Source: Lachnospiraceae bacterium
GTDB lineage: Bacteria > Bacillota > Clostridia > Lachnospirales > Lachnospiraceae
Assembly (NCBI GenBank): GCA_910575775.1
Contig: CAJTEY010000001.1
Span: 310,001-374,000 of the forward strand
DNA: 64,000 nt
Direction: 5' to 3'
The notes beneath the pieces are model-generated. The model ran no database searches and had not been told where the DNA came from. It was given only the letters and a program-made list of their open reading frames with translations. The position numbers and the translations under genes are program-made. This document shows positions 1 to 21,191 of this stretch, piece by piece (position 1 is the first letter of the stretch; every line of letters starts with the position of its first letter).

Positions 1-687
1 CAGACTCCCCTGCACCCATGGATTAGGAACATAAAAGCCCATCAGGCGATCCATAATCTCCGCAAAGGGCTGCTTAAAAAATACACGTTCATCCCCACTG
101 TACCTTTCTGATCTTGGGCTGATACACCTTACAATTTTGGCTGAGAACGGAAGCGGCTCCCCTTTTTTTAATCGAAATCCATTTGTTGGATTGGACAAAA
201 TGCTCGCCGGGCTTGAAAAGCAGATCGGCGCTATAATCGTTTTTATTTTCTTCCTTTTAGCATAATAAATAAAAAATTTTTCCAGCTCGGATTTGTTGTC
301 TGCATACAGCAATATCATGTGTGGCGGATCGTTTTTTAAGACTTTCCTTGCACGATGTTTCCCTCTGCTGTTTCCAGCCGCTATCCTGCATATATTGCCG
401 ACAGCCTTTCCAATCGAAATGATAAGATTATCCTTTTTATACCGATACTCGCGACCAATTCGGTCTCGGTCTGTCTTCCTTCCCTTTTCGTCGAAATCAA
501 TTAGTGCGAAACATTCCATTCCCATTTTTTGAATCTTCTCTTCAGCAGCTTTGATCTGCACCCGGGGATGACAAACCATGACAAACTTTATTTCCTTCCT
601 GTTGCGCAGGCGTTCCGCTAATGACAAAAATCCGTTTACCGCCGTATCGCTGTTGGCAATCATCAGAATTGTTTTTTTATTTTCCAT
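1..687 (-). CDS. Unidentified glycan-locus protein, 3' end outside window
   Basis: Open reading frame of 229 codons that starts at ATG 687 and is still open at base 1, so the C-terminus is missing. The start overlaps the end of the downstream-read neuA-like gene by 11 nt, which supports translational coupling in the same operon. The N-terminus (TILMIANSDTAVNGFLSLAE) looks like the first strand and glycine-rich turn of a Rossmann/GT-B fold. The protein is basic and has no membrane segment. I do not recognise the family. Its place directly after NeuB, NeuC and NeuA makes a sialyltransferase or other transferase a reasonable guess, but nothing in the visible part proves it. Confidence 0.7.
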   Translation of the reverse strand, partial: MENKKTILMIANSDTAVNGFLSLAERLRNRKEIKFVMVCHPRVQIKAAEEKIQKMGMECFALIDFDEKGRKTDRDRIGREYRYKKDNLIISIGKAVGNICRIAAGNSRGKHRARKVLKNDPPHMILLYADNKSELEKFFIYYAKRKKIKTIIAPICFSSPASILSNPTNGFRLKKGEPLPFSAKIVRCISPRSERYSGDERVFFKQPFAEIMDRLMGFYVPNPWVQGSL

Positions 688-1387
688 TCGATGCCCTCTC
701 CATGAGCCACTCTGTCAGCTCCATATCATACCGGGTATCAATATTCATAGAACGCTCCGCAGGCATCACATAGATGACAGGCTCGTCACTGATCACCAGA
801 TCAGATGTAAGCAGATACTGCACATCCGTAATAAAGACAGCCCCGTTTCTCACATACAGCTCCGGCAAATCCTGCCGCCGTTTTCCTTTATTATGATCCG
901 GGTGCAGTGCAATACCCATATCATCCCGCCTGTGATAGGCATTGTACTGACTGACGCTCTCTTCCCTGTAACAGCTCACCAGAGATGTTCCCTGCCTGCT
1001 GTCATACAGCGCAATGGCGCCAATAATGTCTTCCCCTCTCCTGAGCGGCGAAGTAGGCTGCAATAAAACAACATCGTCGTAATATTCCCCCAGTTCCCGG
1101 TAAAAATTCACCGCATGAATCATCAGATCCGCGCTTTTTGACTTATCAGACGAAAGCGCTGCAGGCCGGATAAAAGGCACCTCTGCGCCGCATTCTCTTG
1201 CAACAGCAGCGATCTCCTCGGAATCCGTCGATACGATCACTCTGTCAACCGCCCCGGCTTCTTTCGCCTCTTTCGCCGCCTGAATAGAGTAATAAATCAG
1301 CGGATGTCCCGCCACATTATATATATTCTTTTTGGGAATCCCCTTTGAGCCTCCTCTGGCGGGAATAATTGCCAGCCTCTTTTTCAT
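677..1387 (-). CDS. neuA: CMP-N-acylneuraminate cytidylyltransferase (NeuA-like)
   Basis: Activates a nonulosonic acid with CTP to give the CMP-sugar donor. The nucleotide-binding motif IIPARGGSKGIPKKN is at residues 7-21, followed by the DRVIVSTDSEEIA strand and LLQPTSPLR, both classic for the family; about 236 residues is the usual length of the single-domain enzyme. I chose ATG 1387, not the in-frame GTG at 1396, because GGGGTG lies 6 nt before it. The gene follows neuC-like and neuB-like genes in the same direction and overlaps the next gene by 11 nt. Neu5Ac is the simplest substrate because no legionaminate or pseudaminate genes are seen here, but a legionaminate enzyme cannot be excluded by eye. 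Confidence 0.9.
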   Translation of the reverse strand: MKKRLAIIPARGGSKGIPKKNIYNVAGHPLIYYSIQAAKEAKEAGAVDRVIVSTDSEEIAAVARECGAEVPFIRPAALSSDKSKSADLMIHAVNFYRELGEYYDDVVLLQPTSPLRRGEDIIGAIALYDSRQGTSLVSCYREESVSQYNAYHRRDDMGIALHPDHNKGKRRQDLPELYVRNGAVFITDVQYLLTSDLVISDEPVIYVMPAERSMNIDTRYDMELTEWLMERASNGK

Positions 1388-1428
1388 GTATCTCACCCCA
1401 AATCCTGATGTGAACAGTTTCCCTTTTC

Positions 1429-2580
1429 CTAATATGTCATTCTTTTGTGGATGGACAATTCCACCTTAGCCAGAAAGTCTGCAATGATTTCGCCCGCATT
1501 TCCTTTTCCGAAAATAATTTCCGATTCATATCTCCCATGGGCTATCTGTCTCTCCAGACATTCGGAGATTTCTTCCGTGTCGTAATCCGCAAGCACGACG
1601 TTTTTTCCGTGCTCCCTTCCCTCCTGTCTGTCTCCGACAATAACCGCCGGTGTCCCGAGAAAAGAAGCTTCCCGGATAAAGGAGCTGCTATTGCCCACCG
1701 CGCAAATGGCATTTTTTAAAATGCAGTTATAGATTTCCGGCGGAAAATTCTTACAGTAAGCGAAGTTGGAATCACTGTTGTTTTCCCGAAAAATGCGAAT
1801 TCCCCTCGACACCAGATCGCTTCCAGCATCAATGTTCGGCCACATCACAATCTTCTGTTCTTCTCTGTCCCTAAGCGCAGCAAGTGTCTTCTCCACCTGC
1901 GCGCGCCCCTCCTCCGGCGTCGATGTCACCGGATGCTGCATCATCAAAATATACGGCTTCGTAAAATCAATCCGATAGCCCACACCAACGTTATATTCCT
2001 GCATCTTTTCGTTGCTGATTGAAAGATCCTGATGGCAGAGTGCATCTACGGAAGGGCAGCCGCTGTTCACAATACGTTCAGGCTCCTCCCCCATCTTAAT
2101 CAACCGCTCTTTGCTCTGCTCTGTAGAGGGAAAATGGTAATGTGACATTTTCGTTATCGCATGTCTCACCAGCTCGTCAATGTTTCCCGTAATCTCTCCC
2201 CCCTGAATATGGGCAAGCGGAATATTGAGATAGGTTGCCGCAATCGCCGTCGCCATCGTCTCATATCTATCAGCGACAGTCACCACCACATCCGGCCGGA
2301 TATCCTCAAAGACCGTGGACAGTTCTATAATACCAAGACCTGTGGATTTGGCCTGTGTTTCCAGATTTTCACCCTCTATCACATAATAAATCTTTCTGGT
2401 GGGTGTAAATCCGTCTTTTTCAATTACACGGAGCGCATTCCCGAAACGATCCAGCAAAACGGATGCCCCTACAACAAGCTGCAGTTCCAGATCCGGGTGC
2501 GCCTGTATCGCTTTCAATACATATTTTACCCTGCCATAATTAGCCCTGCTCGCCACTACCACACATACTTTTCTCTTCAT
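1429..2580 (-). CDS. neuC: UDP-GlcNAc 2-epimerase, hydrolysing (NeuC-like)
   Basis: Family members convert UDP-GlcNAc to ManNAc plus UDP, the first step of bacterial sialic acid synthesis; LegG/NeuC homologues act on UDP-diacetylbacillosamine. The 383-residue protein has the family start ASRANYGRVKYVL near residue 10, the QHPVTSTPEE segment in the middle, and GNSSSFIREASFLGTPAV followed by GDRQEGRE near the C-terminus. That last block separates this protein from the non-hydrolysing WecB at 10586-11710. It sits between neuB (22 nt upstream) and neuA. Substrate assignment rests on the absence of bacillosamine-type genes in the window and is an inference. Confidence 0.88.
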   Translation of the reverse strand: MKRKVCVVVASRANYGRVKYVLKAIQAHPDLELQLVVGASVLLDRFGNALRVIEKDGFTPTRKIYYVIEGENLETQAKSTGLGIIELSTVFEDIRPDVVVTVADRYETMATAIAATYLNIPLAHIQGGEITGNIDELVRHAITKMSHYHFPSTEQSKERLIKMGEEPERIVNSGCPSVDALCHQDLSISNEKMQEYNVGVGYRIDFTKPYILMMQHPVTSTPEEGRAQVEKTLAALRDREEQKIVMWPNIDAGSDLVSRGIRIFRENNSDSNFAYCKNFPPEIYNCILKNAICAVGNSSSFIREASFLGTPAVIVGDRQEGREHGKNVVLADYDTEEISECLERQIAHGRYESEIIFGKGNAGEIIADFLAKVELSIHKRMTY

Positions 2581-2601: not shown

Positions 2602-3654
2602 CTATTCTTCCGCACTGCCGCCCTCCAGGTCAGACCAGTGCAGCGCCCCTCCCATCTTTAGGTCTTTTACCAGTCTTTTTCCAAGCACCTCCTCATAGTG
2701 TTCCCCGGAGATACCGTTTAAAGGTTTTTTGAAGGAGAGCGCTTCCAGATCCAGCTTTTCCCCCTTTGCGATGTCCCGCTTCAGGTAAATGCCCTTTGCG
2801 AAAATACGCTTTAACTCCTTCTGCTCCTCATTCAATGCTGTCTTATCAACCGGTGCATTGCGCATCGCGGTAATCATCCGGATGCCCTCTGTCATTTCCC
2901 GCAGCTGTTCTATCGTCACAGACGCTTTCACATCGGGGCCAAACATGTAAGGACTCATGGTCACATGCACTTCTATCATCAGCGCACCGTTCGCCACAGC
3001 TGCCAGTGACGGAAATATCGTTCCGGAATGATCCGAAAGCCCAATGGGGCATCTGTATCTGCTTCGCATCTCGGAAATAAGATTCAATCCGATCTTCTCC
3101 GGCGGACACGGATAAGCTGTCGTACACTGCATCACTGCATATGGATTTGATTTGACCATCGCCACCTGATGGTCGATATCCTCAAAAGAGCTTAAGCCTG
3201 AGGATAAAAGAATCGGTTTTCCTGTTTTTACCATCCTCTCGACCAGACAGTTGTTAAAAACTTCTCCCGAACCAAGCTTCCATGCCGGCATGCCGATGTC
3301 CTGCATCATTTCAAGCGCTTCCACAGAAAAAACAGAGCTCAGAAAATCAAGCCCACCCTCCCATGCATGGCGGTGCAGACCTTCCCACTGTTCATAAGTA
3401 AATTCCATTCTTTTCCAGTAATCATATCTGGTCCTGTCCTCGTAGCTGAACCTGACGCGGAAGGGCTCGTCCGGCGTGCTCTCCGCCTCCGCAATATGGG
3501 TCTGAAATTTAATCGCATCAACTCCTGTGCCTGCCACCGCATCAATAAATGCGTGTGCCTGCCCCAGACTGCCGTCATGATTCTGGGATATTTCCGCAAT
3601 AATATATACTTTGTTCTGTGCAATGCCTTCCGCAAACCATTTACTGATTTCCAT
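2602..3654 (-). CDS. neuB: N-acetylneuraminate synthase (NeuB-like)
   Basis: Condenses ManNAc (or a related hexose) with phosphoenolpyruvate to make a nine-carbon nonulosonic acid. The TIM-barrel part shows IIAEISQNHDGS near residue 18, PAWKLGSGE in the middle, GLSDHSGTIFPSLAA and then IEVHVTM, whose His matches the metal ligand of the family's EKHFT motif. The C-terminal 70 residues (GIYLKRDIAKGEKL to the end) form the antifreeze-like SAF domain that closes the active site, so the enzyme is full length at 350 residues. The Asn-His pair of the usual IGxNHxG motif is kept with a small change (ISQNHDG). Start ATG 3654 follows AGGAAGG and lies 7 nt after the previous gene's stop. Confidence 0.9.
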   Translation of the reverse strand: MEISKWFAEGIAQNKVYIIAEISQNHDGSLGQAHAFIDAVAGTGVDAIKFQTHIAEAESTPDEPFRVRFSYEDRTRYDYWKRMEFTYEQWEGLHRHAWEGGLDFLSSVFSVEALEMMQDIGMPAWKLGSGEVFNNCLVERMVKTGKPILLSSGLSSFEDIDHQVAMVKSNPYAVMQCTTAYPCPPEKIGLNLISEMRSRYRCPIGLSDHSGTIFPSLAAVANGALMIEVHVTMSPYMFGPDVKASVTIEQLREMTEGIRMITAMRNAPVDKTALNEEQKELKRIFAKGIYLKRDIAKGEKLDLEALSFKKPLNGISGEHYEEVLGKRLVKDLKMGGALHWSDLEGGSAEE

Positions 3655-3661
3655 ACCCGCT

Positions 3662-5038
3662 TCACCTTCCTTCCTGTAATAGCGCTCCTATTTTACAAAT
3701 GATTTTTTCAGCTTCCCCACCATCCCCCGCTTCTATGGCATTCATCTTCTTCCATCGGTCAAATTCTTTATCCTGGTATTCTTCCAGCCATTGTCTGCGC
3801 CTCTGCAAAAAGGGAAGCGGCACATGACGCAGCAGCCATCCGTATATCCGATACAGGAAGCTGTTTCCCATAAAAGCAATAACCACTCTCTCCCTCAAGG
3901 AATACAGACGCTTATAAGCCCTCTGCTGCCTGCGGTTAAGCGCATATGCATCATCGCGGTACACTTCCTCAAAAGCGTCCGCGACCTTGACATAAGAAGC
4001 CTTCCCGTCATCCACAAGATAAAACGGATTTACAATTTCCTTTGTAAGTCCCAGATCCACCTGCTGGCCGGATGCAGATCTTGAAAATGTATCATAATCG
4101 GTAATCCTGTTCATTTTCATCAGAAGTGGGTGACTCTGGTCTTCCGGTATGGGATAGGGACATAAGTGCATTGGGTTCTTTCCCGCAAAATATGCCTCCA
4201 GAATCGCCGTGCTGTTCCACGCATAGACCAGATCACTGATCACAATCCACTGTTTGACGGAAAGCTCTGAAATCACTCTGAAATTTTTATCATTCTCCGC
4301 CATCTTTTCGGCGCGCGGCGAACCGTCTCCCGGATGCGGACGATAGACAATCACGCAGTCTTTATGCTCCTCCAGAAACTGTCTGAACCATCCCAGTATC
4401 GTGAGCTGTTCTCTTTCGGCCACCTCCAGATACCGTCTTCGCCCCTCACCAAAACGCGCAATCGTTGCCCGTCTTGCTTCCTCCGATGCCTCCACATATT
4501 TAAATCCTGCAATAAAAAGACAAATTTTTTTGTCAGTAGGTAACTCATAGCGTTCACAAATTTCATCTCTGGATAAATAAAACCCTTTGAACTCCGGCCT
4601 CAGCAGATCCATAGTTATATTTCCCGTCACTTTGACATGATCCGGCGTGACTCCTGCTTTCTCAATCAGCCTTCTCCGGTTTCTTTCTCCCCATGATATG
4701 TGTACGATTTCCTTTGCCAGACCTGACAGGTTCCGAAAGCTGTTGCTGTCCTTTTCCTGTTCATTGGTGATCACCTGTTCCCACTGAAGATTAACCACTT
4801 TGTCAAACTTAATCCTGTAGCTGGCATAATCCTTAATGGAACTGCTCGTATAACAGTACCCGACCACCAATACTTTGGTTTTATACACTACTGTACGCGA
4901 TTTTATCAATTCATAATCATTTTCATACAGAATCTTTGTCTTGTACCCTCTTTTGTCCAACTCATACTTTAATAAGCACAAATTGTCCAATTCTCTCACC
5001 TTATGTTCATACATGAGCAGGAAATCATATTCTTGCAT
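3662..5038 (-). CDS. Surface carbohydrate biosynthesis protein, GT-B-like
   Basis: A 458-residue soluble protein. It carries IVYRPHPGDGSPR near residue 230 and a later ISDLVYAWNSTAILEAYFAG segment, the pattern of GT-B-like proteins annotated as surface carbohydrate biosynthesis proteins and of CDP-glycerol/polysaccharide phosphotransferase relatives, where the RPHP histidine lies in the active cleft. The N-terminus (YDFLLMYEHKVRELDNLCLL) is also typical of that group. It lies 7 nt upstream of neuB, so it probably transfers or polymerises a sugar of the nonulosonate-containing glycan. Donor and acceptor cannot be read from the sequence, and it could be a sialyltransferase of an unlisted type. 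Confidence 0.7.
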   Translation of the reverse strand: MQEYDFLLMYEHKVRELDNLCLLKYELDKRGYKTKILYENDYELIKSRTVVYKTKVLVVGYCYTSSSIKDYASYRIKFDKVVNLQWEQVITNEQEKDSNSFRNLSGLAKEIVHISWGERNRRRLIEKAGVTPDHVKVTGNITMDLLRPEFKGFYLSRDEICERYELPTDKKICLFIAGFKYVEASEEARRATIARFGEGRRRYLEVAEREQLTILGWFRQFLEEHKDCVIVYRPHPGDGSPRAEKMAENDKNFRVISELSVKQWIVISDLVYAWNSTAILEAYFAGKNPMHLCPYPIPEDQSHPLLMKMNRITDYDTFSRSASGQQVDLGLTKEIVNPFYLVDDGKASYVKVADAFEEVYRDDAYALNRRQQRAYKRLYSLRERVVIAFMGNSFLYRIYGWLLRHVPLPFLQRRRQWLEEYQDKEFDRWKKMNAIEAGDGGEAEKIICKIGALLQEGR

Positions 5039-5049
5039 CCGAAGTTCTC

Positions 5050-6288
5050 CTAAGTTATATTTGGATAATACTGTTCTATCTGTTTCAGCCCCTCATTAAA
5101 CTGCTCCAACAAATCGTCTGGCTGGTAAAATTCATTTAATAACATTTTTTTAGGCTGAACCGCTCCCTGCATAATTTCAAGAATTAAAGGCTCAAGTTCC
5201 GAATCATAATCATCTATCAGCCACGTGTGTCCCCAGACAAAATGCTTTATATATTCACGGTCAAAGACGATCTGTATCACATAGTTTCCGATCGCCCCCG
5301 CTTCCACAAGAGCAGATGTCCGCACCCCCATTATAATATAATTTTTTCTCAGTTCTCCATAAAAATCATTTGTCTGCTCTATTTCAGGCAGTAAATATTT
5401 TTTTATATATTCAGCCTCTTTGCCGGGAGAATGCGCTTTAAATTTAAATGGAATGCCCACCCGGCGGCAGATCATATAGATTTCATTTATCATTTTATAA
5501 TATTTGCTGTAATCTATTTCATCTTCAAATACAAATCCATCCCCGACAAACAAGACAGACATGTTTCTTTCTCCCGAATATTGCTCAAACGGCTTCAACG
5601 GATAACCCAAAACAAACGATCTTTCTTCCTCTGTCTTCTGTATTTCCGTATAAATTTTCCGATTGTTTTCATTCCAAAACCAATAGAAATCAAACCATTT
5701 CGGAGCCAGAATCGTATGCTTTCTCCACCCATACTCATAAATAAGCGGATTCGCAAGAAAACCATGTTCCAATAACACAACCGGGATGCTGCACTCCCTT
5801 GCCGCTTCATAAAGAATGATATCAAAAATATGGGCAGGTCTGAATGACGTTGTCAATATCAGTTTAGGTCTTGCCTTTGTAAGATATTTTTTCAATTTTT
5901 GCTTTATTTTTTCCAGGCGTCTGTCATCATCATCGAGAACTGCAAGTACCGCATCTTCCGTGTACGCCCGTAAATGACACAGCATAGAAAGTCTGCGGTC
6001 AAAACAGTATTCCTTCCATCCAAACCCATCAACCGAGACCGAAAAAACATGATATTGTCCTGCCAGCATTCTGCATAGATATCCCAGCTTCCATCCGTGA
6101 ACGACAACGCTCTCCGCTTTGCGGTCCACAACCATTTTAGAGAGATCAGCCACGGAAAATACTTCTTCACGCACCCTCTTTAAACGGCGCCAGAAGCCTG
6201 CTGCCCCTTTAGGCATGTTTTCAAGCCCGTAAATCTTTTTTAAATTTTCTTTGTCCGCCCACTCCCTAAGTATATAATCATATTTCAA
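5050..6288 (-). CDS. Putative GT-B-like polysaccharide transferase
   Basis: A 412-residue soluble protein, AT-rich like its upstream neighbours. The mid-region VVLLEHGFLANPLIYEYGWR and the later FKAHSPGKEAEY plus GVRTSALVEAGAIGNY resemble the cleft-forming blocks of capsule/CDP-glycerol-type GT-B enzymes: an HG motif, a (K/R)xHP-like motif and a glycine-rich S/T-E motif. No membrane segment is visible. It is 11 nt from the following gene, which has the same kind of fold, so the two may act in sequence on one glycan. The family assignment is by motif only, and the sugar donor is unknown. Confidence 0.6.
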   Translation of the reverse strand: MKYDYILREWADKENLKKIYGLENMPKGAAGFWRRLKRVREEVFSVADLSKMVVDRKAESVVVHGWKLGYLCRMLAGQYHVFSVSVDGFGWKEYCFDRRLSMLCHLRAYTEDAVLAVLDDDDRRLEKIKQKLKKYLTKARPKLILTTSFRPAHIFDIILYEAARECSIPVVLLEHGFLANPLIYEYGWRKHTILAPKWFDFYWFWNENNRKIYTEIQKTEEERSFVLGYPLKPFEQYSGERNMSVLFVGDGFVFEDEIDYSKYYKMINEIYMICRRVGIPFKFKAHSPGKEAEYIKKYLLPEIEQTNDFYGELRKNYIIMGVRTSALVEAGAIGNYVIQIVFDREYIKHFVWGHTWLIDDYDSELEPLILEIMQGAVQPKKMLLNEFYQPDDLLEQFNEGLKQIEQYYPNIT

Positions 6289-6324: not shown

Positions 6325-7938
6325 TTATGGAGTTTCTTCCAGTATTTGCTGATAAACACTTGGTGTAATGAATTCTATGGCGCTTTTTCCCTTAATCGAC
6401 GAAATATAATCCCTCAGCATACACATAATATCATTGTTAAGAGAATCAAACTCTTCTATATGCCTGCTATTTTGAAAACTGTCATCAATATAATTATTTT
6501 TAATGCCTGTACTAAAACCGTCAAAACCCGCCAGATATATTTTCTTAAATCCTATCCTTCGGAGCAGATACAGCAGCATCATGGCGGAGTTATCAAAATA
6601 TTTATATTTTTTATTAATCAGATCATAGTAATTCACAATCTTATCATTCTCATTGTCACGTTCAATATTTGATGTCACAATCGTTTCAATTCCATTTCTC
6701 TCACCACATCTTAAATAGCGCTTTTTATTTCCAAAAAAGAGCATATCCGCATTTTCGTAGACATAGTTGACACTGATCGTAAAGATATCCCCCTGTACAG
6801 TATACTGACATATTTCATCCTCAAACTTCTGCAGACTTCCGCCCGGTACAATAATCAGAATTCTTTTTCCAGACAGCTTCTCTTTTAAGTACGACAAAAC
6901 TTCCCTGTCATCTATATTGGCTGCACAATACTCCACATATATCTTTTCAATATTATCATAATTATATCTCGTGCGTTCTTCTGGTTCTATGCTGGCAAGA
7001 AGATTCTTAATATCCTTTGACTGCAGTCGGAATTTTGAAAGCAGATAAATTACATTGTTGGGATGACTCTGGTAAATACCCGAGAACAGTGAAGGAATGG
7101 AATATCCCCATTGACAGCTCTCCTTGTAAGGATAAATATAATCATCTATCAAATCACATATTTTATTAAATTCATAATCCATGTTGCATTTCCGCACCAG
7201 GTAATCAACTAAAAGCTCTGTATTTAAATTTCCCGCAAGCTTTCCCATTCCATTTAATGTGCAGTCTATTATCACATTGCGCCTGTCTTTGGCAAGTCTT
7301 ATCATTTCCTGCGAAAGAGAAAAGGAAAGCTGGTAGTTATTATGGGAATGAAAATCCAGAAAAATATCCCCGGACAAGTTCTTGTCCAGCAGATCAAAAA
7401 CAGCTTTCAAGTCATCCGCATACATTGCACCATATGTATCAACAATGCCAAAACTGTAGGGGGAAACTTCATTGACCATATCAATGACATCCAGCATTTC
7501 CTCTTCAGAGTACGCAAGAGAATTCACGCCTTGTATAAATAATTGATATCCTTTTGTTTTTACCGATACCAGGCTTTCAATGATCTCATCCTTATGCTGC
7601 ACAAAATCTCTTTTTGTAAATCCAACCCTGATTCCTTCTATGGAGCGTCCGTCATATTCCTTTAATGACGAAAAATCATACATTCCAAAATCAACAAATG
7701 CAACATACATCGTATTGCAATCTTTCCTGACAAACGGAACTATTTGCTCTACATCTGTAAAAAAAGTGCTGTTCCCCAAATATTCCATCTGTCTACAGTC
7801 CCGTAAAAAACCGATCTCTACAATATCAATTTTCGCCTCAGCTAATCCCGAAGAAACTTCTTTTATATATGAGTCCTTAAATGCACAATTTATTATTCTT
7901 CCACCGTCTCGAAGAGTACAGTCCAAAACCTTAATCAT
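6325..7938 (-). CDS. DRE-TIM aldolase fused to DUF115/sialyltransferase-like domain
   Basis: Two-domain protein of 537 residues. Residues 1 to about 290 are a DRE-TIM metallolyase/aldolase (HMGL-like): LDCTLRDGG at 5-13, E41 in VEIGF, metal ligands H197 and H199 in DFHSHNN, and GMGKLAGN at 230-237, matching the GxGxxAGN loop of 4-hydroxy-2-oxovalerate aldolases. Residues about 356-537 form a Rossmann-like domain (ILIIVPGGSLQKFE, then KKIYLAGFDGF at 465-475) like DUF115/MptE or GT42-type sialyltransferase folds. ATG 7938 overlaps the upstream cytidylyltransferase stop by 8 nt, so the genes are coupled. Pyruvate aldolases can build 2-keto-3-deoxy sugars, so it may replace NeuB in a second ulosonate route. 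The reaction is inferred. Confidence 0.75.
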   Translation of the reverse strand: MIKVLDCTLRDGGRIINCAFKDSYIKEVSSGLAEAKIDIVEIGFLRDCRQMEYLGNSTFFTDVEQIVPFVRKDCNTMYVAFVDFGMYDFSSLKEYDGRSIEGIRVGFTKRDFVQHKDEIIESLVSVKTKGYQLFIQGVNSLAYSEEEMLDVIDMVNEVSPYSFGIVDTYGAMYADDLKAVFDLLDKNLSGDIFLDFHSHNNYQLSFSLSQEMIRLAKDRRNVIIDCTLNGMGKLAGNLNTELLVDYLVRKCNMDYEFNKICDLIDDYIYPYKESCQWGYSIPSLFSGIYQSHPNNVIYLLSKFRLQSKDIKNLLASIEPEERTRYNYDNIEKIYVEYCAANIDDREVLSYLKEKLSGKRILIIVPGGSLQKFEDEICQYTVQGDIFTISVNYVYENADMLFFGNKKRYLRCGERNGIETIVTSNIERDNENDKIVNYYDLINKKYKYFDNSAMMLLYLLRRIGFKKIYLAGFDGFSTGIKNNYIDDSFQNSRHIEEFDSLNNDIMCMLRDYISSIKGKSAIEFITPSVYQQILEETP

Positions 7939-8596
7939 GCTGATTCCCTTTCCTCTTTATATATTCCGCTGCAGCTTCCGCAAGGGCAAAGTCTTCTTTC
8001 GTGTCTATATCTATCGCTTCAAACTGATCAATTGCACAAATATAAGGATTGTCACCGATTCTTTGATGAAGCTCTGTAAATACTTTTTTCGTAAATATGA
8101 AAAAAGCCCCAGTCTCCATATAGATCGGTTCCAGATCCTGTGTCCTCACAATATCCTTCATATCATAGTTAAAAGGTTTCCCATGATACCACATATAATC
8201 CTGCAGTTCTACCGCGCTGAATGCAGAATCATAGGCTCCGCTTTTTACCTTATCCAAAGCTTCTATAATTGATTTTCCTTTCGTAAACGGCTGCGTGACA
8301 TGCGTAATAATATAAATGTCTGCATCAATATCATTTACAAAAGCTTCTATAATATCCAGTCCCTTAACCTCATAGCCGTCCAATTTCTCATCCCTTTTGA
8401 GAAATTCAATACCGTCTGGTATATATGGAATTATTTCCTCATTGCTGCAATACACATACCTTTCATCAATTTCTTTCAACCGGCTTACCGTCTGAAATAA
8501 ATAATCACATACAGGTCTGCCCGCTAAATCCATAATATTTTTTCCCGGCAGCCTCTGGTTATTTAGTTTAATCGGAATAAACAATGCAACTTTCAT
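7931..8596 (-). CDS. Second CMP-sugar cytidylyltransferase (acylneuraminate type)
   Basis: About 221 residues with the cytidylyltransferase fold: ALFIPIKLNNQRLPGKNI at the N-terminus replaces the canonical IPARGGSKGIPxKN but keeps the R-x-PGKN end, followed by YVYCSNEEI and ITHVTQPFTKGKSI. It is clearly different from NeuA at 677-1387. I placed the start at ATG 8596, where AGGAA lies 5 nt upstream, and not at a longer in-frame start at 8638 that would run into the KdsC-like gene. It lies between a KdsC-like phosphatase and an aldolase fusion gene. In animal CMAS and some bacteria a cytidylyltransferase is joined to a KdsC-like domain, so this adjacency suggests a KDN/KDO-like substrate. Substrate unknown. 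Confidence 0.82.
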   Translation of the reverse strand: MKVALFIPIKLNNQRLPGKNIMDLAGRPVCDYLFQTVSRLKEIDERYVYCSNEEIIPYIPDGIEFLKRDEKLDGYEVKGLDIIEAFVNDIDADIYIITHVTQPFTKGKSIIEALDKVKSGAYDSAFSAVELQDYMWYHGKPFNYDMKDIVRTQDLEPIYMETGAFFIFTKKVFTELHQRIGDNPYICAIDQFEAIDIDTKEDFALAEAAAEYIKRKGNQHD

Positions 8597-8603
8597 AAAA
8601 TTC

Positions 8604-9128
8604 CTACACTCCTGTCCCGTATTCGCCATACATGGCACTGATTACAGCATCCCATTCTCCGCGCTGCCTCAACAGATATTCTATGACATCCCGCACCGCC
8701 CCTGCGCCGCCGCTCACATCGCTGACATACGAAGCAATCTCTCGAACCTGTTCGCAGGAATCCTTCGGACAGCCAACAAAAGCTGCCAGAGACATAGCCG
8801 GATAATCATTGATATCGTCACCTATATAGCCCATGTCCTCTTTCGCAATATCTCTCGCCGCCATAAATTCTGCCAAAAAATCTTTCTTATTTTCCACCTT
8901 TTGATACAGAAAATCAATTTTCATTTCCTGCATCCTTCGTGTTGTCGCCGGACATTCACGTCCTGTCAGCACAATCAGCTTTATCCCTGCTCTTCTCGCC
9001 GCCACGAATCCAACGCCGTCCCTCGTGGAGAACTTTTTTATTTCATTGCCTGTACTGTCATAATATATGCCGGCGTCTGTCATGGTTCCGTCGACATCCA
9101 GAACTAAATATTTGATTTGTTCGAACAT
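8604..9128 (-). CDS. KdsC-like HAD phosphatase
   Basis: HAD-superfamily phosphatase of 174 residues, the normal size of the capless KdsC/KDN-9-P phosphatase group. Motif I is LVLDVDGTMTD with D11 as likely nucleophile and D13 as acid/base; motif II is IVLTGRE; K in the VENKKDF segment fits motif III; motif IV is YIGDDINDYPAM. Members remove phosphate from 8- or 9-phosphorylated 2-keto-3-deoxy sugars. The start lies 3 nt after the upstream glycosyltransferase stop, and the next gene begins 8 nt after this stop, so the three are one transcription unit. The classical NeuB route uses unphosphorylated ManNAc and needs no phosphatase, so this gene argues for a second, phosphorylated pathway. The exact substrate is inferred. 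Confidence 0.85.
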   Translation of the reverse strand: MFEQIKYLVLDVDGTMTDAGIYYDSTGNEIKKFSTRDGVGFVAARRAGIKLIVLTGRECPATTRRMQEMKIDFLYQKVENKKDFLAEFMAARDIAKEDMGYIGDDINDYPAMSLAAFVGCPKDSCEQVREIASYVSDVSGGAGAVRDVIEYLLRQRGEWDAVISAMYGEYGTGV

Positions 9129-15357: not shown

Positions 15358-17031
15358 TTAAAAATATAGCTTTACCGCTCCGAGCACAGTAAGCGCCATA
15401 CTTTTTTCCTCCACTGTTCCTTCTTCAAACATCAAAGAAATATCCTTTCCAAGTTCCCCGCCAATCTCACTCCTATCCCTGTTCTGCAAATAGTATTCTC
15501 TGTAGTACTCCTGTATTCCTGGATTTCCATGATACCAGTAATCCAACGGATTCATGTTGTCTCGATCCGGCAGCTTCAAAGCTCTACAAGATACCTGCCA
15601 CAGAAGCCTCTGCGTTGTCTTCACTTTCCTAAAAAAAATAAGATTTTCCCGGGGCTTAATGCCTCCCCATTTCTCCCAGCCAAAGGAAGTTGCCTTTGGA
15701 TATTTTTGTTCCATCCATTTCAAATAAATGTGATGCTTGTCTCTGTATTCAAAAGGGATCGAATAATTAACTTCCAGAAAATCCACATCTGTAAAAGGAG
15801 ATGCCGCTTCTACATAGTGCTGCCGGATAATATAGGAGGACATAGCTCCCATCATTCCTCTTGTATAAATAGCGAACATTTCTTGACAAGGATACTCTTC
15901 CATAATCTGACTGTCAACCGCATAGGAGAGTCTGTTAGAGTACTGATTTAATCCCAGGCGCGGTTTCCCAAAATTCAATTCCCTGTTATGATAAAAGGTC
16001 GACAGCGTAATATCCCCTATCATACCTGTATGCTCAAGTCCATATTGATTCGTATTAAGCGCCCCAAGCAGTCTGCTGCCCCCCGTAATACCGGTATAAA
16101 GCGCCGCCCCATTATTTTTAGAGACAATGTCATCAATATCATATAGCCACTTCGCATCATCCAATGCCTTAAAAAGATACTCATGCCCCAGATAAATGGC
16201 TATCTGCTGAGATATCTTATAATCAAGATAGTCTGCCCGGCAATAAGTGACATTTAATTGATCCGTATATCCCATATCATGTGCCACCCAGGAAACCATC
16301 CTGCTGTCCAGACCGCCACTCAAATCTACCAGATGACTGCGTCCATATTCTCTGTCCTTATCAAACTCTCTCCGAACAGCTTCCCTGAATGCGCTGTCAA
16401 TCCTCTCGACAGCTTCCCTCTCAGACATCTGTACTTCCTTATTCGAAATCAGATAATATCTTTCAACCTTCTGTTGTCCATTCCCGATGCGCACCAGCTG
16501 CCCCGGCAGCAGACGATGGATCTCCTTTACAAATGTACTGCCGTCCAGCATATAGCCGTATGTCAACATATATTTTGCTGCAGTTTCATTAAAATGATAC
16601 GGTATTCCGTTTTTTTTCAAAACAGTAGTCATATATGGAATGTGGCTTGACACTATCCATCTGTCTCCGTCCGCATAGTAATACAGGGCTTTTGTGGCAA
16701 TATGATCTGTATACGCAGTAAGAACAGAATCCTTCTTATTATAGATATATCCACAAAATCCGCCTCTCAATGCCCGCAGGCATCCGCCTGCATCCGCCCG
16801 CATAGCCCCGGCAAAGGCATGCTGCCAATCCTTGGTACCTCCTGCCGCCAGCTTCTCTTTATTATAGATATATCCATCCAAAAAGCTGATCTGTGCCTCC
16901 TCGTCTAAAAAAACCTGATCTTTCGGAAACTTATTGAGAAGGTGATTATACTGCCTGCAGTGCCCGAGATCTACGGTTTCACCGAGACATTCTATATTCA
17001 TATTTCCTGCCGCCAAAAATCCCCGTACCAT
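15358..17031 (-). CDS. Asparagine-synthetase-like ligase without N-terminal Cys
   Basis: About 557 residues with the two-domain layout of AsnB. The C-terminal synthetase domain holds the PP-loop VDLSGGLDSRMVS (near residues 235-247), which binds ATP and adenylates a carboxylate. The N-terminal half keeps the glutaminase fold pattern (ISFLDGYIYNKEKL, GGFCGYIYNKKDS) but lacks the Met-Cys start needed for glutamine hydrolysis, so it may use free ammonia or another amine, as in beta-lactam synthetase relatives. In polysaccharide loci such proteins are thought to amidate uronic acids; UDP-ManNAcA made nearby would be a fitting target, but this is inference. ATG 17031 has GAGG 7 nt upstream and is preferred to ATG 17037. 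Confidence 0.82.
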   Translation of the reverse strand: MVRGFLAAGNMNIECLGETVDLGHCRQYNHLLNKFPKDQVFLDEEAQISFLDGYIYNKEKLAAGGTKDWQHAFAGAMRADAGGCLRALRGGFCGYIYNKKDSVLTAYTDHIATKALYYYADGDRWIVSSHIPYMTTVLKKNGIPYHFNETAAKYMLTYGYMLDGSTFVKEIHRLLPGQLVRIGNGQQKVERYYLISNKEVQMSEREAVERIDSAFREAVRREFDKDREYGRSHLVDLSGGLDSRMVSWVAHDMGYTDQLNVTYCRADYLDYKISQQIAIYLGHEYLFKALDDAKWLYDIDDIVSKNNGAALYTGITGGSRLLGALNTNQYGLEHTGMIGDITLSTFYHNRELNFGKPRLGLNQYSNRLSYAVDSQIMEEYPCQEMFAIYTRGMMGAMSSYIIRQHYVEAASPFTDVDFLEVNYSIPFEYRDKHHIYLKWMEQKYPKATSFGWEKWGGIKPRENLIFFRKVKTTQRLLWQVSCRALKLPDRDNMNPLDYWYHGNPGIQEYYREYYLQNRDRSEIGGELGKDISLMFEEGTVEEKSMALTVLGAVKLYF

Positions 17032-17059
17032 TTTCATACCTCTTCAATCATTCCGAAAT

Positions 17060-19246: not shown

Positions 19247-21166
19247 TCAGTCTGCCCTTGAAACTTCATGTCTTCGTTCACACACCGCCATATCGGTGAG
19301 AACAGGCGTCGTGGTGTCAAAGCGTGTACCTTCCTGTGTATACCACCCGTCAAACATCCTGTCTCCGCTGACAGTCCCCGGCTCTGCTCCCGGCAGTCTC
19401 TCCATACACGCCCCTTTTATCACACTCACATAGTTGCTGACAAATCCCTCTTCCGAAAGAAAACAGACCGTGCAAATTTCTTTATCTCCTGCCCACACCT
19501 CATCCAGAAACAGCTTGCGCGATGCCAGGAAATCCCTTATTCTCTGTACTTCACGGCCATAATCAACCTTTTCTCCGTAAATCTTTTTCCATCTGATCAG
19601 ATCCATATCCCTAGAAGCTTCAATCTCCGATACATACTCGTCAATTTTCTCATCCTGAATCGTCTGCATATAGTCAGAAAAAAACGCTTCATAACACGCC
19701 GACACCGACTGGCGGAACTCGTCATGCGTGTTCAGATACCAGAAGAGCATGGTCGGGTCTGTACTCCTCTGCATCAGATAGCACAGATCTTTCACTGACT
19801 CGTTTATCCCATCCAGATTGGCATAAGCCTTGTCATAATCCCAAATGGGCCCGGCAAATAATTTCGGACTGACTGCATCCTCTGGTTTATAGAAAAAGGA
19901 ACTGGTCGCCCCCGCGCCGTTGTTCTTACACAATTCTTCGATGACATATTTCTGCGCAAAGGACCGCATATCTATATAATCCGCAAAGCTCTTACCACTC
20001 TCGGGATTCACGCCGTCCTCGCTGACAAGCGCTTTCTCCAGCGCATTCACAATCCCGCTGATATAATCCACCTGCGCCTCCGAGGCATATGCCGGTTCTT
20101 TGACCGTATACAGATCCTTTAATGTCTCCGTGTAAAATCCACTGATTTCCCCGCAGTATTTTTCGGCCACATCCCGCTCCAGAAGATACCCTCCCGTGAT
20201 GTCCGGGGGATCGTCAGAAAGCACCACGCCCTTTTTCCTCTCTGTCTCAAACCGACCGCAGTTTTCTATATCCCTGTTCCGTTTTTCATTTTCCGCTTCC
20301 AGGTCAGCAATCGGCACTCTCTCCGGGTCGATCTCCACCTTCTCGCATAGCTGGTACATACCGTGGTAGCTGTGATTGACATAGAGATCCACATACTGGG
20401 ACTGCGGCGATCCCGCCATTCCCGCCGCCACGCCCATATCATAAGTGATCTTATTTCGGATATAGGAGCGGTCTTCCACATTGCTTAAAAGAATCCATTT
20501 GTCGGCGCTTCCCATCCCAAACAGGTCGGCCCGGATTTTCAGCCGAATGCCATAGGACTTCTTCGGGTAAGCCCATGTGGAATTTCCTCTCCCGGAAATA
20601 CGATCCAGTCTGTCCGCGCAGACAACATTGCCATCCGCATCGAACAGGACGATCCTCCCTTTTTCCGCATAGTTTTTGTCTGCATCCAGCTTCTTCATGG
20701 AGCCGCTGTCCGTCTCCAGAAAAACAGCCGGAATTTCTGCGGAATGCATGATAACCACAGCCTGCTTTTCCAGTTGTTTCCCTCTTCTGTCACAAAAATA
20801 CAACTGATATTTTTCGTTGTAATCCAGCGCATCGATTCTTGCCCCGTTTACAAGTGAAATGTCGCCCTTCTCCCCCGCAAAGACCACCGTATCCGCCCCA
20901 GCAAAAGAAATTCTCACCTCATTTTTCTTCGCATAAGAGGGGAGAAAGAAATAACTGGTCTGTTCCTCCTCATCCGTAAAACAAAAGATTTCCTGCTCCG
21001 ATGCGGAATTGCCCAGAACAAAACTGATATTTTCCATGTAGCCGTCATTTCTCTGAATGCGATAATATGCCTCTCTCTCCAGCAACGCTACAACCGCAGC
21101 AAGGAAAACAATCAGAAAAAGGAGCATTCCGCGCTGTCTCACCCTGTATGACATCACTTTTTCCAT
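19247..21166 (-). CDS. CotH-like kinase-family protein, membrane anchored
   Basis: About 639 residues. One N-terminal membrane segment (GMLLFLIVFLAAVVALL, about residues 14-30), an extracytoplasmic beta-rich region, then the CotH-kinase-like core: ISGRGNSTWAYPKKSYGIRL at 191-210 (nucleotide-loop region), NKITYDMG, and SPQSQYVDLYVNHSYHGMYQ, ending in PIWDYDKAYA with the metal-binding Asp pair at 444-446. Family CotH of Bacillus spores phosphorylates coat proteins. Here the preceding catalytic position reads KNNGAGATS, with no Asp where the other copy has one (D397 of the 30763-32631 protein), so activity is doubtful. A C-terminal repeat-like tail has FDGWYTQEGTRFD. Start is ATG 21166 or GTG 21169. 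Confidence 0.85.
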   Translation of the reverse strand: MEKVMSYRVRQRGMLLFLIVFLAAVVALLEREAYYRIQRNDGYMENISFVLGNSASEQEIFCFTDEEEQTSYFFLPSYAKKNEVRISFAGADTVVFAGEKGDISLVNGARIDALDYNEKYQLYFCDRRGKQLEKQAVVIMHSAEIPAVFLETDSGSMKKLDADKNYAEKGRIVLFDADGNVVCADRLDRISGRGNSTWAYPKKSYGIRLKIRADLFGMGSADKWILLSNVEDRSYIRNKITYDMGVAAGMAGSPQSQYVDLYVNHSYHGMYQLCEKVEIDPERVPIADLEAENEKRNRDIENCGRFETERKKGVVLSDDPPDITGGYLLERDVAEKYCGEISGFYTETLKDLYTVKEPAYASEAQVDYISGIVNALEKALVSEDGVNPESGKSFADYIDMRSFAQKYVIEELCKNNGAGATSSFFYKPEDAVSPKLFAGPIWDYDKAYANLDGINESVKDLCYLMQRSTDPTMLFWYLNTHDEFRQSVSACYEAFFSDYMQTIQDEKIDEYVSEIEASRDMDLIRWKKIYGEKVDYGREVQRIRDFLASRKLFLDEVWAGDKEICTVCFLSEEGFVSNYVSVIKGACMERLPGAEPGTVSGDRMFDGWYTQEGTRFDTTTPVLTDMAVCERRHEVSRAD

Positions 21167-21191
21167 CACTCCTCAGCATGATCCGTGCCAG

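Follow-up and report, generated by a model that had tools for sequence, protein, structure and literature searches.

A candidate phosphoenolpyruvate-independent route to a CMP-activated 2-keto-3-deoxy sugar acid in a Lachnospiraceae polysaccharide gene cluster

Introduction

Can an aldolase take the place of the synthase in a pathway to an activated sugar acid? This question is raised by three successive genes in a 64,000-nucleotide stretch of a Lachnospiraceae genome (GenBank assembly GCA_910575775.1, contig CAJTEY010000001.1, positions 310,001 to 374,000 of the forward strand), called the window here, which lies on contig C1 of the 4.88 Mb genome to which we give the handle G000 (G and L numbers below denote genomes and loci). 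In the routes known to us, ulosonic acids activated with cytidine monophosphate (CMP), that is sialic acids, 3-deoxy-D-manno-octulosonic acid (Kdo) and their kin, are made by a synthase that consumes phosphoenolpyruvate (PEP). The three genes encode a KdsC-type phosphatase, a second NeuA-like protein of the cluster (NeuA2) and a two-domain aldolase-like protein (ALD, 6325-7938), and run as follows:

8604..9128, minus strand: KdsC-family phosphatase, 174 aa (TIGR01670); proposed to remove phosphate from the aldol product
7931..8596, minus strand: NeuA2, NeuA/KdsB-like cytidylyltransferase (PF02348); proposed CMP-ulosonate maker
6928..7938, minus strand: ALD catalytic domain, residues 1-337, HMGL-like / DRE-TIM aldolase (PF00682)
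6325..6927, minus strand: ALD C-terminal domain, residues 338-537, no family; pattern APGKS ... TSN ... AGFDG

Judged from sequence and gene neighbourhood, this trio probably makes a CMP-activated 2-keto-3-deoxy sugar acid by a PEP-independent route, a proposal that concerns the type of pathway and not the chain length of the product.

Family assignments of the three proteins

The trio was pointed out by a sequence-only reading of the window, and all three open reading frames are indeed present on the minus strand, with their families borne out by TIGR01670, PF02348 and PF00682. None of the three passes an equivalog model. The 8-nt overlap of NeuA2 and ALD given in that reading is confirmed, and the 8 nt given between KdsC and NeuA2 holds as a coordinate difference, with 7 bases between the genes when the ATG at 8596 is taken as the start. 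The NeuA2 frame is open up to a GTG at 8638, and the ATG is the preferred start. By eye, AGGA-like stretches precede the starts of both NeuA2 and ALD.

The phosphatase scores 129.1 bits with TIGR01670 at subfamily level (cut-off 106.95), and falls short of both the model for the 9-phosphate phosphatase of 2-keto-3-deoxy-D-glycero-D-galacto-nononic acid (KDN), NF058599 (130.3 versus 180), and the KdsC equivalog NF007019 (132.2 versus 208). Its best relatives in the PDB are Kdo-8-phosphate phosphatases together with 3e81, which was deposited as an acylneuraminate cytidylyltransferase and which we take to be the Bacteroides KDN-9-phosphate phosphatase.

NeuA2 reaches the gathering score of CTP_transf_3 (PF02348; 47 versus 22.6 bits), and its best PDB match is the NeuA 9t4z (3e-11). 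A D-x-D stretch (DID) near its C-terminus was matched by eye to the metal-binding aspartate motif, the two aspartates of which are D209 and D211 in the Neisseria enzyme, according to an excerpt of PMC2901514. Several ALD-linked relatives of NeuA2 have DIN where the window protein has DID.

ALD is 537 aa long and matches the HMGL-like family PF00682 at residues 2-263 with 61.3 bits against a threshold of 29; the closest solved relative is PDB 3dxi, a 'putative aldolase' (7e-21). The residues invariant in all 20 rows of an alignment of 17 fused genes, the close relative L003 and two unfused genes include D6, T8, R10, D11, G12, E41, H197, H199 and N201. Such invariant residues are expected of the metal site in the HMGL-like superfamily, and the PF00682 score together with D11, H197 and H199 places ALD among the HMGL-like / DRE-TIM metallolyases. 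Membership in the 4-hydroxy-2-oxovalerate aldolases was rejected, as the TIGR03217 score is far below the cut-off (59.6 versus 286 bits).

The HMGL-like family also includes the isopropylmalate, homocitrate and citramalate synthases, whose models match ALD weakly, and ALD could in principle be a Claisen-type condensing enzyme that joins an acyl-CoA to a keto acid to give a product other than an ulosonate. This is very improbable. The best NCBIfam scores of ALD are those of 4-hydroxy-2-oxo acid (HOA) aldolase models, which at 65.6 and 59.6 bits exceed that of isopropylmalate synthase (38.8 bits); furthermore, the C-terminal domain has no match to a Pfam regulatory domain, and the partners of ALD are ulosonate-type enzymes.

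Indeed, no Pfam family of any kind was found for the C-terminal domain. It was aligned across 15 of the 18 fused domains then at hand, with L033, L037 and L042 left out, and MptE-like PF01973 matches 4 of these 15 members weakly (best E 0.007). In the PDB, two sialyltransferases and one enzyme of MptE type matched below the threshold, while the best match, a SteA-like protein (E 0.0055), spans only 40 residues. Profile comparison with the MptE-like/GT42 group by hhalign returned a P of 0.0095 but a probability of 4%. Apart from the SteA-like match, these results are weak hints toward the MptE-like/GT42 group.

Recurrence of the aldolase with a cytidylyltransferase and a phosphatase

Matches to the window ALD at E 0.001 occur in 98 of 291 genomes of the class. 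The full-length fused protein, defined by coverage of the query to residue 490 or beyond, accounts for 17 genes in 16 of these genomes, the rest being the aldolase domain only or distant HMGL relatives. At E 1e-40, a profile search run on 398 genomes of the phylum matched 13 of them and brought in two further fused genes (G302 and G639), for a total of 19 fused ALD genes in 18 genomes, the window included and L003 extra. Neighbourhoods were drawn from a few dozen genomes.

A PF02348 cytidylyltransferase stands directly upstream of ALD on the same strand in 10 of the 19 loci (G000, G057, G104, G086, G215, G034, G207, G246, G151 and G302), called CMP-type below. The underlying search covered 22 genomes and excluded G302, which was typed separately, and G639, where phmmer references found no such cytidylyltransferase in the 20-kb ALD stretch. 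By eye, the upstream protein is of two kinds. The NeuA-like kind, with the motif KLNN-x-RLPGKN or close variants, is found in the window, G057, G086, G215, G207 and G151 and beside the unfused ALD of G181; the KdsB-like kind is found in G104 (assigned by family scores), G034, G246 and G302 and on a Leisingera plasmid.

Similarly, phosphatases recur. The 24 ALD-bearing genomes searched have 7 KdsC places above the TIGR01670 cut-off, of which 5 belong to an ALD locus: the window, G057 (where KdsC is fused behind ALD in a protein of 760 aa), G104, G151 (2.5 kb away) and G181, whose ALD is unfused. By estimate, the density of KdsC genes would give 0.0015 per locus within 6 kb, in genomes that were chosen for having ALD. 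Among the matches listed, on which absences are weak evidence, a HAD_2 phosphatase adjoins ALD in G215, G034, G260 and one of the two G135 loci, and lies 3.7-5.5 kb from it in G207, G058, the other G135 locus and G639. A HAD-IIA gene adjoins ALD in G077. Altogether, 7 of the 10 loci of CMP type have a phosphatase of one subfamily or another no more than 4 kb from ALD. The neighbourhood comparison suggested by the sequence-only reading thus leaves the logic of the trio standing, with ALD behind a cytidylyltransferase in 10 of 19 loci.

The arrangement is also kept in L003, an uncultured Lachnospiraceae metagenome-assembled genome with a 91% identical ALD, the one relative found when genome contigs were searched for related loci; here the gene order is preserved from KdsC to NeuA1, the NeuA of the adjacent NeuB-NeuC-NeuA set. 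Because the order is kept in L003 and the partners recur in unrelated genomes, the trio is more than a chance arrangement.

In two CMP-type loci, G086 and G302, a gene of 2-keto-3-deoxygluconate (KDG) kinase type directly follows ALD (the kinase part of NF041633 scores 555 and 548 bits, where the whole-protein cut-off is 700). KDG kinases are catabolic elsewhere, and aldolases are reversible, so that ALD might instead cleave a 2-keto-3-deoxy acid in salvage or catabolism next to polysaccharide genes. We regard this as the least probable of the alternatives weighed here, as the kinases of G086 and G302 stand directly behind a cytidylyltransferase and ALD, and it is hard to see what a catabolic pathway would do with a CMP-synthetase. 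Catabolic sets, the kind of neighbourhood which the sequence-only reading had named as speaking against its proposal, were not seen around any fused ALD.

Outside the phylum, the Leisingera plasmid carries ALD, the KdsB-like gene and a HAD gene in a row, with the same two-domain layout of ALD by eye. It alone has the trio among the 6 records opened of 22 plasmid records with ALD matches; on a Desulfobaculum plasmid ALD is unfused and has RfbH and the halves of a transketolase as neighbours, and one further opened record is MhpE in its usual place. As a separate observation, three loci (L051:8912-10651, L052:9365-11104 and L053:1519-3249) have, by eye, an aldolase domain behind an IspD/TarI-like cytidylyltransferase domain, which suggests a CDP-linked variant.

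Partners of the cytidylyltransferase

When the search was started from NeuA2 instead, 38 of the 291 genomes had a match at 1e-6. Each of the ten best places (at least 175 bits, counting the window) has next to it an enzyme of a type that makes 2-keto-3-deoxy acids, and for this reason ALD seems to fill the slot of a KdsA or NeuB-type synthase. The neighbour is ALD in 7 of the 10 (window, G151, G057, G086, G215, G181 and G207) and an HpcH/HpaI aldolase in two (G016, with an 8-nt overlap, and G194). In these two loci, and more distantly in Acuticoccus, a gene of a pyruvate-aldolase family stands directly beside the cytidylyltransferase as in the window; HpcH/HpaI is, however, a different protein family from ALD, its members here fall below all equivalog cut-offs, and no KdsC-type phosphatase was seen in the G016 and G194 stretches. 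In the tenth place, G202, a 51% identical relative of NeuA2 stands beside consecutive genes for KdsA, an isomerase of KdsD type and KdsC. This KdsA passes two equivalog models (405 versus 242) and misses a third, the isomerase passes the kpsF subfamily model but not the KdsD equivalog, and the KdsC passes TIGR01670. G202 belongs to the family of the window genome, and its locus (L102:8424-11378) is in its own right a Kdo-type set in a supposedly Gram-positive lineage.

Plasmid matches to NeuA2 came to 46 records, of which 10 were listed and 5 opened. Plasmids of E. coli and Enterobacter carry a NeuA2-like gene (about 40% identical) followed by inositol-monophosphatase family and NeuB family genes and no ALD, and an Acuticoccus plasmid has an HpcH-type aldolase, a NeuA-like gene (28% identical), a dehydrogenase and a HAD gene in this order. 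A tree was built of 23 cytidylyltransferases, with the KdsB-like rows and the L108 NeuA relative left out. Its NeuA2 group of 12 (support 93/90), which does not take in the rows of Acuticoccus, Sulfitobacter and Gemmobacter, mixes ALD, KdsA, HpcH and NeuB partners. We read these neighbourhoods as one activation module with an exchangeable carbon-carbon bond-forming step, for which ALD would be one option. The central idea of the earlier reading, an aldolase in place of the synthase together with a KdsC and a CMP-synthetase, thereby gains support, since close NeuA2 relatives pair with KdsA or HpcH/HpaI.

Could the phosphatase and NeuA2 belong to a conventional KDN-9-phosphate-like route that draws on a NeuB of the genome, with ALD unrelated to both? 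As described in part of PMC6200933, KDN routes use a PEP-consuming synthase, a phosphatase and a CMP-synthetase. Moreover, the NeuB of the window scores below the cut-off of the NnaB equivalog and is only four genes from NeuA2, and NeuA2-like genes pair with a NeuB family gene on the E. coli and Enterobacter plasmids. The inventory of the own genome makes this unlikely. It has 5 NeuB and 7 CTP_transf_3 genes (further loci L083, L084 and L085 on C1 and C6). Within 5 kb of every NeuB lies a CTP_transf_3 gene that is not NeuA2: L083 and L084 have one each, that of L084 being a NeuA-KdsC fusion, L085 has two, and the window NeuB has NeuA1. This leaves over NeuA2 and one gene at C1:442888. In addition, ALD is the neighbour of 6 of the other 9 closest relatives of NeuA2, and ALD and KdsC are fused in G057. 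The sequence-only reading had noted a separate NeuB-NeuC-NeuA set beside the trio and no second NeuB with it; that set was found at 3654-677 and contains the only NeuB of the cluster.

No KdsD exceeds the kpsF cut-off in the own genome, and the one PF00793 match, on another contig, does not distinguish a Kdo-8-phosphate synthase from the synthase of 3-deoxy-D-arabino-heptulosonate 7-phosphate. A conventional KDN or Kdo set for the trio was rejected, with no own NeuB beside KdsC and NeuA2 and no KdsD over the cut-off. Because the NeuBs have other CTP_transf_3 partners and no KdsD passes, ALD is the sole candidate synthase seen beside NeuA2. The leftover gene at C1:442888 (L086:8552-9304) is likewise a CTP_transf_3 gene with no NeuB beside it.

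Counter-evidence and a second partner of the aldolase

Several points weigh against a PEP-independent CMP route. Adjacency is not activity, and we know of no enzyme of the ALD family that has been assayed. NeuA2 is below every NCBIfam cut-off shown. The histidine that follows RDGM in MhpE, the proposed base, is absent in ALD, which has R14 in the window and mostly Y in relatives, and the donor and mechanism are therefore not guaranteed. No phosphatase was seen in 3 of the 10 CMP-type loci (G086, G302 and G246); in G246, whose other neighbours are annotated in part, this means no KdsC or HAD_2 match near ALD. Among 8 weaker NeuA2 places (96-122 bits), ALD or HpcH is present in 3 (G194, G215 and G255), and none was seen in the other 5 (L105-L109) with references for ALD, HpcH and NeuB types, not KdsA. 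Of the opened plasmid records, Sulfitobacter and Gemmobacter relatives of NeuA2 (35 and 33% identical; 5 opened) have no annotated synthase or aldolase neighbours, and the Paraburkholderia, Priestia and unannotated Niallia records matched by ALD (6 opened) have no such set.

Of the 19 fused ALD loci, 8 have an enzyme dependent on thiamine diphosphate (ThDP) and no such cytidylyltransferase: G058, G135 twice, G077, G260, G241, G158 and G639, among the matches listed. A ThDP enzyme was called where PF02775 matched within an open reading frame longer than 500 aa, and the matched domain is 0.2-3.0 kb from ALD. The one of G158, scored in full, is acetolactate-synthase-like, and 7 of the 8 cluster with it or were assigned by sequence. 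No fused ALD locus (0 of 19) has both partners among the matches listed, an exclusivity which is broken outside the fused set by the unfused ALD of G181, with both; in G057 (5.5 kb) and G215 (22 kb, ALD near the end) the contigs are short and the absence of a ThDP enzyme is weak. G014, on an 8.8 kb contig, has neither partner. A Fisher test on the partner class counts gave p 1.2e-4 with relatedness ignored, and a single family, f45, accounts for 6 of the 8 ThDP genes. Since the partner labels interleave on a tree of 25 ALD domains, with 7 changes for the three groups together, ALD partners have probably been exchanged more than once.

A phosphatase lies within 5.5 kb of ALD in 6 of the 8 ThDP-type loci, again of more than one subfamily. 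In G639 (L079:9137-14962), ALD is accompanied by an AroB-related TIGR04425-like protein (336.8 bits, cut-off 400), an FGGY-kinase-like protein and the ThDP-type enzyme.

These loci suggest another fate for the product of ALD, namely a 4-hydroxy-2-oxo acid that is never joined to CMP and serves as acyl donor for ThDP-dependent sugar branching of the erwiniose type. The ThDP enzyme ErwE couples 4-hydroxy-2-oxo acids, which it prefers, to CDP-4-keto-3,6-dideoxyglucose, as stated in part of PMC12247030, and relatives of ALD sit in loci of this YerE/ErwE type, in which CDP-3,6-dideoxy-4-keto sugars are branched. RfbH passes its cut-off in all 5 loci tested (L043, L045, L047, L079 and the unfused L050; G058, the first G135 locus, G077 and G241 were left out), and CDP-glucose dehydratase (L043, L047) and glucose-1-phosphate cytidylyltransferase (L043, L045, L050) pass where tested. 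ALD therefore probably feeds ThDP-dependent sugar branching in the ThDP-type loci. As the explanation of the window, however, this fate is highly improbable and was rejected: no PF02775 is among the matches listed in the window stretch of contig C1, and KdsC and NeuA2 flank ALD there.

As a pyruvate aldolase yields a 4-hydroxy-2-oxo acid, one aldolase could serve both CMP and ThDP loci. Tentatively, then, the fused ALD may be a widespread, hitherto unassigned entry enzyme of surface-sugar synthesis that leads from pyruvate to 4-hydroxy-2-oxo sugar acids with two fates: CMP activation, in which a phosphatase (KdsC or a different one) acts together with a NeuA- or KdsB-like enzyme, or ThDP transfer as a long acyl side chain onto a CDP-4-keto-3,6-dideoxyhexose. 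The CMP branch would be PEP-independent and possibly of the C6 KDG type. The broader proposal is held with less confidence than the CMP route for the window itself.

The proposed CMP route and its relation to known systems

In the CMP route proposed for the window, the metal-dependent ALD domain would first join pyruvate, as its enolate, to an aldehyde sugar that carries a phosphate, giving a 2-keto-3-deoxy-aldonate phosphate. The recurrence of a phosphatase near ALD suggests that the acceptor is phosphorylated. The protein of the KdsC family would then remove the phosphate, which would also drive the reversible aldol step forward; as such, the phosphatase may supply the one-way step that PEP would otherwise give. 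NeuA2, a cytidylyltransferase by family, would couple the free acid to CMP, a form of activation that is described in an excerpt of PMC2901514 as special to N-acetylneuraminic acid-type acids and Kdo. Finally, a neighbouring transferase would put the sugar acid into surface polysaccharide. A first guess at the product is a C6 acid of the KDG or 2-keto-3-deoxygalactonate (KDGal) type, made from glyceraldehyde-3-phosphate, because the KDG-kinase-type gene follows ALD in G086 and G302; C7 to C9 products are possible.

Several known systems resemble parts of this scheme. The KdsA-KdsD-KdsC-KdsB route to CMP-Kdo likewise involves a phosphorylated 2-keto-3-deoxy acid, a KdsC phosphatase and CMP activation, but the window trio has no KdsA or KdsD beside it and an HMGL-type aldolase instead. 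The same logic of synthase, phosphatase and cytidylyltransferase applies to the KDN-9-phosphate synthase, phosphatase and CMP-KDN synthetase of Bacteroides and Prymnesium, as far as described in an excerpt of PMC6200933; there the synthase uses PEP, whereas the trio has no second NeuB and its phosphatase misses NF058599. DmpG, MhpE and BphI (TIGR03217) share with ALD the HMGL-like barrel and the RD and HxH motifs, while ALD has a different residue after RDG and an extra C-terminal domain; MhpE has an acetaldehyde dehydrogenase neighbour, and none is among the window neighbours given to Pfam. The YerE/ErwE type differs from the window cluster, which has no ThDP enzyme among the matches listed. 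No paper on this aldolase or trio was recognised in the open-licence literature of PubMed Central, and a subscription paper could exist.

The surrounding gene cluster

The trio is embedded in a longer minus-strand run, the other members of which are:

11713-10586, minus strand: wecB-like
10493-9132, minus strand: 453-aa protein with no assigned family
5050..6288, minus strand: 412-aa protein, no Pfam or NCBIfam family and no significant PDB match; 36 nt past ALD
3662..5038, minus strand: TIGR04396 surface carbohydrate biosynthesis protein (162.1 bits, cut-off 125)
2602-3654, minus strand: NeuB (passes PF03102; misses TIGR03569, 283.6 versus 399.65)
1429-2580, minus strand: NeuC (passes TIGR03568, 381.8 versus 235.9)
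677-1396, minus strand: NeuA1

From the 453-aa gene down to NeuA1, the spacings are 3, 7, -8, 36, 11, 7, 21 and 32 nt. Promoter-like sites are no commoner than in shuffled sequence (29 versus 27.3). NeuB, NeuC and NeuA1 would form a separate second and conventional CMP-nonulosonate route that has no phosphatase. By its position, the 412-aa protein is a candidate glycosyltransferase for one of the two CMP-sugars, and the TIGR04396 protein a candidate for the other.

The G+C content is 37% in NeuA2 and 36% in ALD, against 47-50% in KdsC, wecB, NeuA1, NeuB and NeuC (48-50% in the last three). NeuA2 and ALD may have entered the genome together, though G+C is also on the low side in the flanking genes of the 412-aa (40%) and 453-aa (42%) proteins. 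The same polysaccharide region has asparagine-synthase-like and CotH-kinase-like proteins at 15358-17037 and 19247-21169 of the window.

MptE-like proteins with a GNGPSL motif recur near these cytidylyltransferases and are candidates for the CMP-ulosonate transferase:

L034:3037-3864 and L035:6150-6992: MptE-like, tested with PF01973
L104:10239-11039, L106:5118-5894, L107:5716-6495, L108:10401-11210 and L109:9638-10438: MptE-like by similarity

Implications

If the proposal is true, the pyruvate-aldolase version would add a route to CMP-activated ulosonic acids and would give a function to an aldolase family that is labelled 'aldolase catalytic domain-containing protein' or 'hypothetical protein' in the records. 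It would also show where the donor acid of long-chain branched sugars, so far missing, comes from, and would predict acid sugars in the polysaccharides of these bacteria.

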